NCBI GenBank assembly: GCA_017647145.1 | Contig: JAGCLD010000007.1 | Location: 62,001 to 126,000 of the forward strand | Length of the DNA: 64,000 bases | Source of the DNA: Paludibacteraceae bacterium | Lineage (GTDB): Bacteria; Bacteroidota; Bacteroidia; Bacteroidales; Paludibacteraceae | Reading direction: 5' to 3' | In this document: piece after piece, positions 12,689-64,000 of the stretch | Position numbering within the stretch: position 1 is the stretch's first letter | Layout of the letters: each line of letters opens with the position of its first letter | The notes under the pieces: generated by a model | Databases searched by the model: none | Seen by the model: only the letters and a program-made list of their open reading frames with translations | What the model was told of the DNA's origin: nothing | Position numbers and translations under genes: made by a program

Positions 12689-12798
12689 GTTCCTATCTTT
12701 ATCCTACGTGTATCCTACGTGTATCCTACGTGTATCCTACGTGTATCCTACGTGTATCTTACGTGTATGGGAGGTAGGTGGGAGGTAGGTGTTGGTCA
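12689..12798. repeat. 11-bp-period array 1 (TATCCTACGTG units)
   Basis: Ten consecutive 11-base units. One GTTCCTATCTT is followed by five exact TATCCTACGTG (12700-12754), one TATCTTACGTG, then TATGGGAGGTA, GGTGGGAGGTA and GGTGTTGGTCA. The core TCCTA stays in register in the first units and the last units keep the 11-base step with another core. It lies between the argS promoter and cassette A. The rest of 12799-13069 holds only short TTAACAT inverted repeats and a TATATTTG -7 box at 12941. Confidence 0.9.
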
Positions 12799-41479: not shown

Positions 41480-41545
41480 ATCCTATCTTCATCCTTGCCG
41501 AATAATCTACTAATATCCTACTAATATCCTACTAAAGTTAGCATA
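41480..41545. repeat. 11-bp-period array 2
   Basis: Six units in 11-base register: ATCCTATCTTC, ATCCTTGCCGA, ATAATCTACTA, two exact ATATCCTACTA (41513-41534), then AAGTTAGCATA. The TCCTA core of the first and the exact units is in phase. It lies 79 bases upstream of the minus-strand CotH start. Confidence 0.75.
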
Positions 41546-58045: not shown

Positions 58046-60655
58046 ATGAAAAAAGTTTTTTTAGCGTTCGCTTGTCTTGTAATGTGTCAAATGACATTTG
58101 CTAACAAGACAGACAATCAAACCACAGAAGGAACAGACTTCTGGGTGACATTCTTGAGAGCGGATGCGGATAGTCCCACCGTGCTATCATTGGCTATCTC
58201 AGCAAAAGAAGCAGCGGATGTGACCATCAGCAATCCTTACACCGGGTTTAACAAAACACTGCACGTGCCGGCAAACACCACTGTGATGGACACCATCAAC
58301 AGAGCGGATGCCTACTCCAGCGTGACCGGAAAAGTAACTGAAACTGCCATTCAAGTGTCGGCCACAGCACCGATATCTTTGTTCGCCTCCAACTATCGAG
58401 AAAAGTCAACAGAGGCGGCTAATATCTTGCCTACGGCTGCATTATTGGATGAGTATGTAATTTCTGCTTATCCTGCATCTGACCACGACGATGATGACAA
58501 ACCTCAAGGTACACACTTTGCAATTGTAGCTGCTGAGGATGACGTTGTAGTGGACTATGTATTGACTAACTCTGCTACAGCCGGAGGCAGTGGCGGCGGA
58601 GGTGTTGATGTAGGTGGCAGCGGCTCCGGAAGTGGTGGCGGAAATGGTGGCATCACCATCGGAATGCCCCAAAAACGTGCTGCAGCGGCCGACACACTAC
58701 AAACACCAACCTTGAAAAAAGGACAAGTGTGGTATGTGTGGACAGGATACAAAGACGGAACTGCGTCTGACCTCACCGGTAGTTACATCAAAGCACGCGA
58801 CGGAAAGAAGATCGCTGTGTTCATGGGCGACCCACACACAAACATTCCTCACGAAATACGCGACCGCGACCACTTGTACGAACAAGCCATGCCGACTGCA
58901 TACTGGGGAACATCCTTTGTTGTAACCGGCTCTATGCTACGCAACGGCGTGAAACGTAAATATGACATTTTGCGCGTGACGGCCTTAGATGACGGCACCG
59001 AATTGCGAGTTGACGGCGTGTTGCGACACACATTTGACTTTGCAAGCAATCCAAGCCGCACCTTTGAAATGAAAGTGGAAAATGCAGGTGTACACTACAT
59101 AGACGCCTCTTGTCCATGCCAACTCTACTTATACATGGTGAGCAACCGTGAAGACGGCAAGGATGCAAACGGCGAATGGCAAAATGGTGACCCCGCCATG
59201 GTATGGATTAATCCATTGGAACAACAAATCGAAGAAATTCAATTCGTTTCTTACCCTGTAATCGAGTCTGAAGCCGGTACATTGCCTGAACACTTTGTAA
59301 ACATTGTGACTGAAACTTCCAACACCGGCAGCATGACACTGGACGGAAACAGCATAGCCGGATGGCAAACGGTTCCTAATAAAGCAGAGTATTCTTATGT
59401 GCAATATTGGCTGGGCAACGGAAAGAAAGTGGGCAGCAGTTACGCTCCTGAAACACACGTACTGAAAGGAAACAAAGGCTTTATTGCTCACGCCTATGGT
59501 TATGGAGAAAAAGAAGCTTATGCTTATTCAGTGGGTGGAAAGACTGTACCTCTCGTATCATTCGTAGAAATCAATGGTGAGATATTCAGCGCCGGAGAGG
59601 AAGGAAAAGTGCTTTGCGGCGTGGACACTGTACACTTCAAACTAGACCTCTCTGCTCCGGTGGACAGTGTAAAATGGATCTTTGGTGACGGAAACGATAC
59701 CATCCAATATCCAACTGTCCCGGGCGAAGTGCAAGCCTACAAAGTGGATTACAAATATCCTGACTCTGACCTCTACAGAGCACAAGTGATATTGTGGCGC
59801 ACCACCTCCGGTCTGTGCCGTGGCGAATCTGCTGTGGATAGCATTCCTATCCCTGTAAACACACAACACTTGGCTGTGACCATCGACTCAATCTCTTCTT
59901 TAGTGTGTCCAAGTCTGAAGACCTTTAATGTTTACTACAGCCATCTGGGCGACCCACAAGCAGTGGACAATGTCTATGCTCAGTTTGACGCTGAAGCGCA
60001 AGCAGCCGGCTTCCCCGCTGAAATAGAAGTGCAATTTGACAACTCTGGTAGCAGTTATATGGCGGTTCCACTACCCGCTTCTGCCAAATCAGCTGAAGTA
60101 TATCATGCCGAATTGATTTTACACAACGACTGTATGAATGATACAGTAAACATAGATTTCCGCGTAAACTACAAAGCTGAAGATGTGATAGCACAACGCT
60201 GGAATGACGTATTAGGCGTGAAAAACAGCGCAACCAACGGTGGATTTGAGTTTATCGCATATCAATGGTATAAAGATTATCAACTCATGCCGGGCGAAAC
60301 AAATTCCTACATCTACCAAGCATTAGAAACGGCTTCTACTTATTATGTGGAATTAACCGACAAAAATGGCATGACCTTGTGCTCTTGCCCTATGTCACCT
60401 ATCAATGAAACTGCAGCCGACACCCCGGAACTGGACATCAAATTCCTACAAGAAGGTAGTGCAGCACAAGTGCAAGTGGCACAAAAAGCAGCCGCACAAG
60501 TGTATGATGTTATGGGACGATGCGTGAGCACACACACCTTAGAACCCGGAATCAACACCATCGATAACCCGGCTAATTCAGGGGTTTATGTTCTTAAAAT
60601 CATGTTTGAGGACATAAAAGATGTAAAAACATTAAGATTTATTGTGGAAAAATAA
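58046..60655 (+). CDS. IgGFc-binding-domain-type T9SS secreted protein
   Basis: 869 residues. The signal peptide (VFLAFACLVMCQMTFA) is followed by a region that starts TEGTDFWVTFLRADAD and continues ATAPISLFASNYREKSTEAA, then ILPTAALLDEYVISAY. This is the N-terminal pattern of the IgGFc_binding family found in large bacterial surface proteins. A Gly/Ser-rich insert lies near 180-210. PKD-like beta domains follow from about 500 (PVDSVKWIFGDGNDTIQYPT). The end is a type A T9SS sorting domain (VYDVMGRCVS, SGVYVLKI, RFIVEK). It is followed after 63 bases by an OmpA-family gene. A related gene starts at 63514. An adhesin or envelope-bound role is inferred. Confidence 0.83.
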   Translation: MKKVFLAFACLVMCQMTFANKTDNQTTEGTDFWVTFLRADADSPTVLSLAISAKEAADVTISNPYTGFNKTLHVPANTTVMDTINRADAYSSVTGKVTETAIQVSATAPISLFASNYREKSTEAANILPTAALLDEYVISAYPASDHDDDDKPQGTHFAIVAAEDDVVVDYVLTNSATAGGSGGGGVDVGGSGSGSGGGNGGITIGMPQKRAAAADTLQTPTLKKGQVWYVWTGYKDGTASDLTGSYIKARDGKKIAVFMGDPHTNIPHEIRDRDHLYEQAMPTAYWGTSFVVTGSMLRNGVKRKYDILRVTALDDGTELRVDGVLRHTFDFASNPSRTFEMKVENAGVHYIDASCPCQLYLYMVSNREDGKDANGEWQNGDPAMVWINPLEQQIEEIQFVSYPVIESEAGTLPEHFVNIVTETSNTGSMTLDGNSIAGWQTVPNKAEYSYVQYWLGNGKKVGSSYAPETHVLKGNKGFIAHAYGYGEKEAYAYSVGGKTVPLVSFVEINGEIFSAGEEGKVLCGVDTVHFKLDLSAPVDSVKWIFGDGNDTIQYPTVPGEVQAYKVDYKYPDSDLYRAQVILWRTTSGLCRGESAVDSIPIPVNTQHLAVTIDSISSLVCPSLKTFNVYYSHLGDPQAVDNVYAQFDAEAQAAGFPAEIEVQFDNSGSSYMAVPLPASAKSAEVYHAELILHNDCMNDTVNIDFRVNYKAEDVIAQRWNDVLGVKNSATNGGFEFIAYQWYKDYQLMPGETNSYIYQALETASTYYVELTDKNGMTLCSCPMSPINETAADTPELDIKFLQEGSAAQVQVAQKAAAQVYDVMGRCVSTHTLEPGINTIDNPANSGVYVLKIMFEDIKDVKTLRFIVEK

Positions 60656-60718: not shown

Positions 60719-62401
60719 ATGAAAAGAACGTTTTTGATGAAGAAAATCAGCGTAGTGTTGATGATTGTTGGAACACTATGGACTGTGCAAGCGCAGAAAC
60801 CTACCCACTATGTAGGATTGTCTGCCAAATTAGGTTATTCAGCTATGCTGGATAATATGAATAAAATCGGTCTTGACACCACTTTCTATTCCGGAAAGAA
60901 CAGCGTGTTAGGAGGGGTGGCAACCGGATTAGACGCAACTTATGAGTTGCAAGTACAAAAATTCCGTTTCTACACCGGATTGAGTTTTGATTACCTTAAT
61001 GCTGCCACACGCATTGGTGATTTCACAGTGAATCGTGAATTGATTAACCCGGGTTATCCAATGTCTTATCAATACGATTACACCAAAATGAATGAAACGC
61101 GTAATGCGCTTTATTTGAGCTTGCCGGTGATGTTTGGTGCATACTTCAACAGATACTACTTCTTCGTGGGTCCTAAGGTAGGCATCAACCTGTACGGAAA
61201 CTACACCATGAAGTCAAAAGTATTGGGACAATACATCGACGACGAATTGATTGGTGACGGTCAAGGTGGATTGGGTGTAATGCCTAACCACGGAGCCGAC
61301 GAATACAAATGGAAAGAAGGCGCACAAAAGTTTAACTTCAACACCTTGAACTTGGCTGTAGCCGGAGAATTCGGTGTGAACTTGGACGAATGGTTGGCCG
61401 TAAAACCTAAACGCGGACAACGTCGTGGACGCAACTACAGAAAAACATTTAAAGAATCATTGCACTATCGCGCAGGAGTGTACTTTGAATATGGCGTGTT
61501 AAACATTAACAACTATGCAAAGAACTTGGCTGACGCTGACGCAAGAATCGCAAATGGCGCTAATACATCTGGCAACGACGTACCTGCATACGTAACCGGT
61601 GGCAACAAACCAACAGACATGGCCATGTCAACTCAATTGGGCACAAAAGCTGCAAGCAATGCCGCATTAAACCCATTGACTGTCGGAGCCAAATTTACCG
61701 TGTTGTATGAAATTCCAAAGAAAAAACCAAAACCACGTCCGAAGCCACAACCAAAACCAAAGCCACAACCAAAACCACAACCAAAACCGGTGGTAGTTCC
61801 ACCTCCTGTGATGAATGGTGTGTTAGTGGACGGAAAGACACAACGTCGTTTGAGCGATGTACAAATCCAATTCCTCGACTCAGAAGGCAATGTATTATTT
61901 GAAGGTCTAACCACCGAAGAAGGTACATTTGCAACCAAGTTGACTCCGGGTACCTACGGAGCATACATCAACAAACCGGGTTACTTACCTAACACCGACC
62001 AAGTTGTGTTCGTGAAAGACTCTGTTTACTTGATCTTGAATCCGCTGGAAGAAAAGAAAAAGATTGTTATCGAAAACTTGTTCTTCGCTACAGCTAAGAC
62101 CACAATCTTGCCAGAATCTGAACAAGCATTGGAAGACTTGTACTTCTTGATGGTTGATAATCCTAAATTGCGCATCAAGATTATTGGTCACACCGACAAC
62201 GTAGGTTCTGACGCAGCTAACCAAAAGCTCTCAGAAGGACGTGCTAAGTCTGTACGCGACAACATCATCGAACGCGGTGTAGAACGCTCACGTATCGAAT
62301 ATGAAGGTATGGGTGAACGCGAACCGGTGGCAACAAATGACACAGACGAAGGACGCGCTAAGAACCGTCGTGTAGAATTTGAAATCCTCTCAAACGAATA
62401 A
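60719..62401 (+). CDS. OmpA-family protein with beta-barrel, Pro/Lys linker and Cna-B-like domain
   Basis: 560 residues. The signal peptide (ISVVLMIVGTLWTVQA) is followed by a predicted outer-membrane beta-barrel of about 300 residues (YVGLSAKLGYSAMLDNMNKI; YLSLPVMFGAYFNRYYFFVG). A 30-residue Pro/Lys repeat linker (KPKPRPKPQPKPKPQPKP) crosses the periplasm. Then comes a carboxypeptidase-regulatory or Cna-B-like domain (GVLVDGKTQRRLSDVQIQFL). The C-terminal OmpA domain has the peptidoglycan-binding pattern (IIGHTDNVGSDAANQKLSEG and GRAKNRRVEFEIL). It should join the outer membrane to the cell wall. The IgGFc-type gene upstream is probably cotranscribed. A clear terminator follows. Confidence 0.9.
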   Translation: MKRTFLMKKISVVLMIVGTLWTVQAQKPTHYVGLSAKLGYSAMLDNMNKIGLDTTFYSGKNSVLGGVATGLDATYELQVQKFRFYTGLSFDYLNAATRIGDFTVNRELINPGYPMSYQYDYTKMNETRNALYLSLPVMFGAYFNRYYFFVGPKVGINLYGNYTMKSKVLGQYIDDELIGDGQGGLGVMPNHGADEYKWKEGAQKFNFNTLNLAVAGEFGVNLDEWLAVKPKRGQRRGRNYRKTFKESLHYRAGVYFEYGVLNINNYAKNLADADARIANGANTSGNDVPAYVTGGNKPTDMAMSTQLGTKAASNAALNPLTVGAKFTVLYEIPKKKPKPRPKPQPKPKPQPKPQPKPVVVPPPVMNGVLVDGKTQRRLSDVQIQFLDSEGNVLFEGLTTEEGTFATKLTPGTYGAYINKPGYLPNTDQVVFVKDSVYLILNPLEEKKKIVIENLFFATAKTTILPESEQALEDLYFLMVDNPKLRIKIIGHTDNVGSDAANQKLSEGRAKSVRDNIIERGVERSRIEYEGMGEREPVATNDTDEGRAKNRRVEFEILSNE

Positions 62402-62454: not shown

Positions 62455-62561
62455 TCTTTTACCCCCCCCATTATCATAATAATAGAACAGACGAGGTGAC
62501 TTGCCACCAAAAGGACCAACCCAAGCAAGACCCAAAGCGCGGTTCTTATGAACGTAATGCA

Positions 62562-62790
62562 GTAGGGAAAATTGCGAGTAAGTGAGGGCAATAGAAAACT
62601 TGTTTTCTAATTGCCGAACGTGAGCAATTTATTCAAAATTGCGAGTAAGCGAGCGCAATGGAAAACTTGTTTTCTAATTGCCGAACGTGAGCAATTTATT
62701 CAAAATTGCATGTAAGCATTGTAGGGAAAATTGCGAGTAAGTGAGGGCAGAATCAAGCTTGCTTGAATTATGCCGAGCGAGAGCAATTTA
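62562..62790. repeat. Three tandem nested-hairpin repeats
   Basis: Copies at 62562-62632, 62636-62700 and 62721-62790. Each has an outer stem (AAATTGCGAGTAAG.GAG.GCA with TGCCGA.CG.GAGCAATTT) enclosing an inner stem. The inner stem is AGAAAACTTGTTTTCT or GAAAACTTGTTTTC in the first two and AATCAAGCTTGCTTGAATT in the third. The third form recurs inverted at 16985-17060. Confidence 0.8.
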
Positions 62791-62869: not shown

Positions 62870-63167
62870 TTCCCACTGCTTCTCCCCACACAAATACTAA
62901 TCGCACTGTCACCCTTTAAGGGAGACGAGGCAATTTATTGCCGGAGGGGGTAACCTCAGCACAGCTCTTTTGAAAGCAATGCCATGTCCACCTGTTTTAT
63001 ATGCTTGTTCTCGGCATCAGCATGCAGTTTCCTCACTACCCCTACAGCAAAGCGCCCTACAGCGTAAGCGCCCTCTAAACTATCACCCATCCCCACACCC
63101 TTCCTCCGGCAAGCAAAACACCCTTCCTCAAAAAAAAGCCCTAACTTTGTAAATTTTTCCTACCGGA

Positions 63168-63310
63168 CACGTAGGATACACGTAGGATACACGTAGGATA
63201 CACGTAGGATACACGTAGGATACACGTAGGATATACGTAGGATATAGATACAAAACAGATAGGAACTAGATAGGAACTAGATAGGAACTAGATAGGAACT
63301 AGATAGGATG
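63168..63310. repeat. 11-bp-period array 3 (13 units)
   Basis: Six exact CACGTAGGATA, one TACGTAGGATA, one degenerate TAGATACAAAA, one CAGATAGGAAC, three TAGATAGGAAC and one TAGATAGGATG, contiguous and all 11 bases long (143 bases). The only columns shared by both unit types form TAGGA. CACGTAGGATA is nearly the reverse complement of the array 1 unit TATCCTACGTG. It lies about 200 bases upstream of the partial gene at 63514. Confidence 0.95.
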
Positions 63311-63430
63311 AAGATACCATAATAGTTCTTTCACCGAAAACCAACAATTAAGAACAAGGATATAATCCTATCCGCAAAAAAATAGCACTAATAGTGTCAA
63401 AAAATCCACATATAGGGTATAGTCAGATAG

Positions 63431-63438
63431 TATCTTTG
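63431..63438 (+). promoter_or_regulatory. -7 box for the partial IgGFc-type gene
   Basis: TATCTTTG, 75 bases before the ATG at 63514. No TTTG stands at the expected -33 position, so an additional activator may be needed. Confidence 0.5.
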
Positions 63439-63513
63439 TAACTGACAACGAGCACCCATACGCATAGGGTAACACGTTGTCATAACACAATGTCAATCAA
63501 TAATCTAACAGAT

Positions 63514-64000
63514 ATGAGAAAAAGTGTTCGTTTACAGCTGGCAGTTCTCAGCCTAATCCTAATGTCGCTTGGCACATCGCTGAGCATCAATGCACAAACA
63601 CCATCTACACTGGGAAAAGAGTTCTGGGTGTCCTTCATGGCAACAGAGAAAAGCCCGGACTTATCCTTGGCTATATCTGCAGAGAATGCCTGCAATCTAG
63701 TAGCTATTGAACATGTGGGAGTGAATGTATTAGGCAGCAACATTGCGGTGCCCGCAGGTCTCAACCCCATCAATGGATTGGGACACGAAGCCTATGTAAC
63801 ATCTTCAGAAGTTGTAGAGAATAAGGTTTTACGTCTGGAATTTGACGCTGAGGTAGCCTTGTTTGCATCCAACTATGTGTCAAAAGTATTTGACAATGCT
63901 GCTATATTACCAACAAGCGCATTGCTCAGCGAATATGTAGTACAGACCTACCCTAACTCTGAGGGAAAACGAGAGTTTGCTCCGGAATTTCTAATTGTTG
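63514..64000 (+). CDS. IgGFc-binding-domain-type secreted protein (partial, runs off right edge)
   Basis: The frame from ATG at 63514 is open to the window end (162 codons). MRKSVRLQLAVLSLILMSLG is a signal peptide ending near INAQ. It continues TLGKEFWVSFMATEKSPDLS, then LFASNYVSKVFDNAAILPTS and ALLSEYVVQTYPNS, clearly paralogous to residues 25-150 of the protein at 58046. The C-terminus is outside the window, so a T9SS domain is expected but unseen. The longest 11-bp array lies upstream. Confidence 0.82.
   Translation, partial: MRKSVRLQLAVLSLILMSLGTSLSINAQTPSTLGKEFWVSFMATEKSPDLSLAISAENACNLVAIEHVGVNVLGSNIAVPAGLNPINGLGHEAYVTSSEVVENKVLRLEFDAEVALFASNYVSKVFDNAAILPTSALLSEYVVQTYPNSEGKREFAPEFLIV

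Follow-up and report, generated by a model that had tools for sequence, protein, structure and literature searches.

Genes and repeats at the array locus

The window, a stretch of 64,000 nucleotides from a contig of a Paludibacteraceae genome, carries an OmpA-family gene (60719-62401) flanked by apparent paralogues at 58046-60655 and 63490-64000. The protein encoded at 58046-60655 belongs to the IgGFc_binding family (PF17517 at 4.2e-48), and its end resembles, by eye, a type IX secretion sorting domain. The gene at 63490-64000, by eye, codes for a paralogue of this IgGFc_binding-type protein; a Pfam search gave no match for the 170 amino acids that lie within the window. The array considered here is situated between the OmpA-family gene and this latter gene, and is made up of a C block and a T block, with the following features:

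63130-63165, + strand: leader AAAAAAAAGCCCTAACTTTGTAAATTTTTCCTACCG, delimited by alignment of 22 leaders and common to 22 arrays
63142-63149, + strand: TAACTTTG box within the leader, matching the TAnnTTTG -7 consensus
63166-63242, + strand: C block of seven units, namely GACACGTAGGA, five copies of TACACGTAGGA, and TATACGTAGGA
63243-63264, + strand: transition pair TATAGATACAA AACAGATAGGA, a junction that recurs at the same position at many loci
63265-63308, + strand: T block of four copies of ACTAGATAGGA, a unit with 89 copies in the genome
63309-63319, + strand: tail cap unit TGAAGATACCA, in phase
63431-63438, + strand: promoter-like -7 box TATCTTTG, found by TAnnTTTG scan, between the array and the next gene
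63490-64000, + strand: gene 3′ of the array, which continues past the window end and reads as 871 aa when a later start is taken at locus L096

The sequence-only reading had divided positions 63168-63310 into thirteen units of exactly 11 bases, with TAGGA constant at one column. Direct unit division bears out this split, and Tandem Repeats Finder independently returned a period of 11 in both array halves. TAGGA is present at its column in twelve of the thirteen units, the exception being the eighth, TAGATACAAAA (63245-63255), which contains TACAA and marks the switch point between the unit types. The phased tract is furthermore longer than was read, extending from 63166 to 63319 in the register NNNNNNTAGGA, with GACACGTAGGA as first and TGAAGATACCA as last unit. 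Eleven bases correspond to about one turn of DNA. The pattern TAGGA(N6)TAGGA(N6)TAGGA, with at most one mismatch, has 13 matches in the window and none in 100 shuffles. Among all pentamers spaced strictly 11 bp apart, the longest run has seven members, against two to three in 60 shuffles. These comparisons exclude a chance origin of the window array. A coding repeat is unlikely, since 11 is not a multiple of three and TAG recurs in all plus-strand frames.

The array family in the genome

At least 72 related arrays, comprising 519 units, are present in the 2.0-Mb draft genome of 47 contigs, a lower bound as the arrays were found by pattern searches and then counted in stretches fetched around the matches. 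The three-core pattern occurs 249 times in the genome. All 72 arrays are intergenic, with no overlap with predicted genes, and they reach up to 16 units in length. Many contigs terminate within arrays, as would be expected of short reads that cannot span a repeat. In 636 kb of stretches picked for containing arrays, 11 bp is the dominant tandem period (73 of 93 arrays), and TAGGA is entirely absent from eight of these 11-bp arrays.

One order of unit types is observed at nearly all loci: a cap, a block of TACACGTAGGA, TAAAGATAGGA, a TACAA unit, a block of ACTAGATAGGA and a TACCA cap. The opening cap is optional (e.g. CCTACCA), the closing cap is exemplified by TGAAGATACCA, and the pair between TAAAGATAGGA and the T units reads TAAAGATACAA/AACAGATAGGA. 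The C unit TACACGTAGGA is the commonest in the genome (207/519). Arrays of C units only or T units only occur, and some of the latter have further 11-bp units, CATACCGTTAC or ATCTCGGGACC, ahead of the T units; a T block is never found ahead of a C block. The strict 11-bp phase across changes of unit type, first noticed at the window array, is thus seen at many loci, and also in other species.

A leader is shared by 22 of the 72 arrays, in which TAACTTTG or TACCTTTG sits 31 bp before the first TAGGA. The promoter activity of this leader is doubtful, as a TTG at -33 is absent from all 22 leader boxes, whereas of the 38 promoter-like boxes on the downstream side of arrays, 22 have one. A right flank is common to about eight arrays, and about half of the arrays have neither leader nor right flank in common with others. 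Interior C units differ between loci by 0.8%, compared with 16% for the adjoining 36-bp leader, a 20-fold difference. Beyond the arrays, degenerate in-phase units run for about three units upstream and about four downstream, with a lag-11 identity of 0.348 and 0.318 in this genome (against about 0.29) and 0.317 and 0.368 in a second genus (against about 0.27).

Distribution and conservation of the unit

Three or more consecutive TAYACGTARGA units were found in 12 of 358 genomes of the family, namely the present genome and those of 11 species from a single other genus. Both congeners are without such arrays. Within this second genus, the C unit occurs in only 11 of about 165 genomes. A scan of a named genome collection yielded one other array-bearing genome, an uncultured Bacteroidales MAG which, given coinciding array coordinates, is apparently one of the 11 species, and whose proteins share 59-69% identity with those encoded here for the clearest pairs.

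The 37 arrays of the 11 species have TATACGTAGGA, TATACGTAAGA and variants as interior units. Across 112 such units A2, A4, C5, G6 and A11 are invariant, columns 1, 7 and 8 rarely vary, and columns 3, 9 and 10 often do, a pattern that depends in part on the search, which left columns 3 and 9 free. A safe comparison can therefore be drawn among the remaining columns only, where 12 of 18 changes fall in column 10. TAGGA had been proposed as the conserved core, a proposal that does not hold: the variants within this genome are not concentrated outside TAGGA, no part of the unit being significantly depleted of interior variants, and its GG is among the most variable positions in the second genus. 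As judged from these aligned units, the conserved part is instead ACGTA, together with A at columns 2 and 11.

Of five comparisons between close species with arrays at the same gene, two show a length difference of precisely one or two units (11-bp and 22-bp indels). The sequence-only reading had regarded ordinary minisatellites with fully conserved units in relatives as contrary to its interpretation; the gain and loss of whole units does resemble that of ordinary minisatellites. Other species of the family contain 11-bp arrays of different units, such as CATAGGAACTT, ATCACCTAGGA, TATTATTATGA and TTCCTTAGTGA. One second-genus locus (L257) contains, around position 106, a T/A-rich 11-bp array of TATTATTATGA/TATTATTAGGA, and its genome also contains TAYACGTARGA and ATCACCTAGGA arrays, giving three unit families with one period. 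The control pentamer AGTGA was found in 2 of 150 genomes, compared with 8 of 150 for TAGGA, and the AGTGA matches are themselves 11-bp arrays. A reversed-pattern control was rejected as not independent, because TAGGAT also holds AGGAT.

Genomic context of the arrays

Where both neighbouring genes could be placed, the surrounding region is codirectional for 30 arrays, divergent for 18 and convergent for four, approximately as expected from intergenic length. Array orientation within the codirectional regions (20 versus 10) is not significantly biased. A promoter-like box commonly follows an array at a distance of 40-150 bp, and boxes reading away from the array were detected in 38 of 68 downstream flanks, compared with 19 of 59 upstream flanks (p = 0.016). 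The orientation of arrays toward promoters thus amounts to a modest bias only. An apparent orientation bias in which the downstream gene lies on the same strand (38/49) was discarded, because divergent regions always yield such a result. Of four periods tried for a helical register between array and promoter, 10.5 bp gave p = 0.0135, but the signal was absent in a stricter subset and is not robust.

Neighbouring genes in the examined subset include valS, murC, purC, transporters and surface proteins, identified by eye except for purC, and no common function or regulon is obvious among the downstream genes, a subset of which is annotated. An array is situated upstream of purC (SAICAR synthetase; PF01259) in both genera, of T type here (L108) and of C type in the second genus (L292 and L310). 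At a further locus (L132), a 1492-aa reading frame, Cas9-like by eye, lies some 380 bp upstream of the array and is divergent from it.

Comparison with known repeat systems

Phased 11-bp direct repeats that are cooperatively bound, as proposed here, are found in the ParR/parC iterons of plasmid R1, which form a single plasmid centromere rather than the dozens of chromosomal sites observed here. The PhoP/PHO boxes likewise are assembled from 11-nt direct repeat units whose conservation is graded (PMC7866108). As in PHO boxes and OmpR-PhoB operators, tandem 11-nt direct repeats are located upstream of promoters and less conserved units flank the core, but the PHO boxes, which serve phosphate genes, comprise about two to six units, whereas the arrays here have up to 16 units at more than 70 loci (PMC7866108). 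A coherent target gene set, as expected of PHO boxes, was not found, the examined neighbours being a mixture of housekeeping and surface genes. The genome encodes only two regulators of the OmpR type (PF00486).

BrickBuilt of Porphyromonas gingivalis is a MITE with a minisatellite, a dispersed element of leader, repeat and tail (PMC4596501). It shares with the present family the bacterial order, an intergenic and species-restricted occurrence, multiple copies and a build of leader, tandem repeats and tail, but has a 23-nt unit, terminal inverted repeats and 19 copies, compared with 11-bp units and at least 72 copies here (PMC4596501). Convincing inverted repeats are lacking in the present arrays, in contrast to BrickBuilt: in four elements no bracketing inverted repeats of at least 10 bp were detected, save for one 10-nt A/T-run pair (L110) judged to be of low complexity. 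Leader and tail are likewise restricted to part of the copies (22 of 72 and about eight, respectively). By these tests, the array family is not a BrickBuilt-type MITE.

TAACTGA intergenic direct repeats occur in Beggiatoaceae, Cyanobacteria and some Bacteroidetes (PMC4679880). These too form many short tandem direct-repeat arrays between genes, with a patchy distribution and no functional class of neighbours (PMC4679880). Their unit is 7 bases long, the heptamer of the TAACTGA/STRR type, whereas the unit here is 11 bp, or one helical turn; in the BOGUAY genome at most a few bases separate them from start codons, while the arrays here are approximately 100-300 bp upstream; and the ordered unit types seen here have no counterpart in the abstract describing them (PMC4679880). 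With one short unit arrayed at many intergenic sites, the present family belongs to the dispersed intergenic short direct repeats, of which it is a variant form. To call the design one without a named counterpart was thus too strong, in view of PHO boxes (PMC7866108), BrickBuilt (PMC4596501) and the TAACTGA arrays (PMC4679880). Our literature search, which covered mainly papers outside subscription journals, returned nothing on 11-bp tandem repeats in Bacteroidetes or Bacteroidales.

Interpretation of the arrays

The best reading, to which we would give slightly short of an even chance, is that of a lineage-restricted, dispersing family of helically phased putative binding-site arrays. Each 11-bp unit, with ACGTA as core in the C type, would be the recognition site of a sequence-specific DNA-binding protein, copies of which would be arranged head to tail along a single helix face, polymerising with one copy per turn. 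Arrays between genes would then tune transcription or local DNA packing. Unit number changes by whole units, and the arrays have also spread between loci by a copying process, in some cases together with the shared leader. The phased binding platform of the sequence-only reading accordingly stays the best supported, although the protein itself, the cooperativity of its binding and any influence on transcription are what we infer. In its favour, the units remain uniform beside a diverging leader, and selection or exchange between loci would be keeping them alike, since slippage within loci would let the loci drift apart. Across the 11 species, columns 3, 9 and 10 account for nearly all minor variants, and the same unit has been kept despite the protein divergence noted above. 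The fixed order of unit types, the in-phase degenerate units, the excess of downstream promoter boxes, the purC array in both genera and the intergenic position of all 72 arrays also favour phased binding sites. The lack of a regulon among the neighbours, the near-random intergenic placement, the gain and loss of whole units and the patchy occurrence, with both congeners free of arrays, argue against them, as do the evenly spread interior variants in this genome and the fragile helical register, and recombination between arrays could also hold the units identical.

The main rival, a dispersed minisatellite without cell function, has a substantial probability, if one that also falls short of even. 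Its arrays would have expanded by slippage, spread between genes by duplication or recombination, and been kept alike by gene conversion. Whole-unit indels between close species, the patchy distribution among genomes, the other 11-bp units elsewhere in the family and the random-like context without a regulon are all consistent with this, as are leader and right flanks common to subsets of loci, which resemble copied segments. It accounts less readily for a unit that is uniform while the adjoining leader diverges, although conversion could do so, and the restriction of variation to few columns, the constant order of unit types and the failure to find a single transposition unit also count against it. 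A MITE-like mobile element with an internal minisatellite, whose leader, repeats and tail are moved together by a transposase in trans as in BrickBuilt, would explain the shared leaders and right flanks, the exclusively intergenic position and the promoter-like box in the leader. The lack of bracketing inverted repeats and the many arrays without a shared flank, however, render it improbable, and matches in plasmid and phage records are at chance level, with none in viral contigs; a phage or plasmid origin was thereby discarded. Less probable still is a transcribed 5′ leader that acts as RNA, for instance with repeats bound by an RNA-binding protein or the ribosome. With a TAnnTTTG box placed 31 bp ahead of their first TAGGA in 22 arrays, the repeats could be at the 5′ end of an RNA, but the missing TTG at -33 speaks against transcription from this box, most arrays lack the leader altogether, predicted folding is no better than that of shuffles (z -1.2 and -1.3), and the array has no Rfam match.

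If the arrays do bind a protein, they would provide sites phased at one helical turn across a whole genome of the little-studied Bacteroidales, and the naturally occurring differences among them in the number and type of units would permit a direct test of phasing and site number in cooperative binding. A bolder version, which we consider unlikely, is an unknown filament-forming DNA-binding protein co-evolving with dozens of chromosomal tracks, where the one-turn spacing is preserved and the sequence of the unit turns over between lineages; this would make the system a genome-wide organiser or insulator, rather than a regulon-specific operator. If, on the other hand, the arrays are only minisatellites, they would represent an 11-bp unit able to reach 70 intergenic sites and stay uniform, with a bearing on the homogenisation of bacterial repeats and on the breaks of draft assemblies at repeats.

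Additional repeats in the window

A second member of the family is found in the window, adjoined by a different 11-bp unit:

12691-12767, - strand: second family array, composed of TACACGTAAGA, five copies of TACACGTAGGA, and TAAAGATAGGA
12768-12791: different 11-bp unit TGGGAGGTAGG in 2.2 copies, in phase and adjoining the second array

Just upstream of the array at 63166-63319, within 62490-62717, a 67-bp tandem repeat is present in 2.2 copies (62568-62717). It overlaps a marginal Rfam match to group-II-D1D4-3 (32.6 bits; gathering threshold 32), and is followed by other intergenic repeats, including the near-palindromic GGACACGGCACGCCGTGTCC. A further 11-bp array, of the unrelated unit CTACTAATATC in 2.6 copies, is located at 41507-41535.
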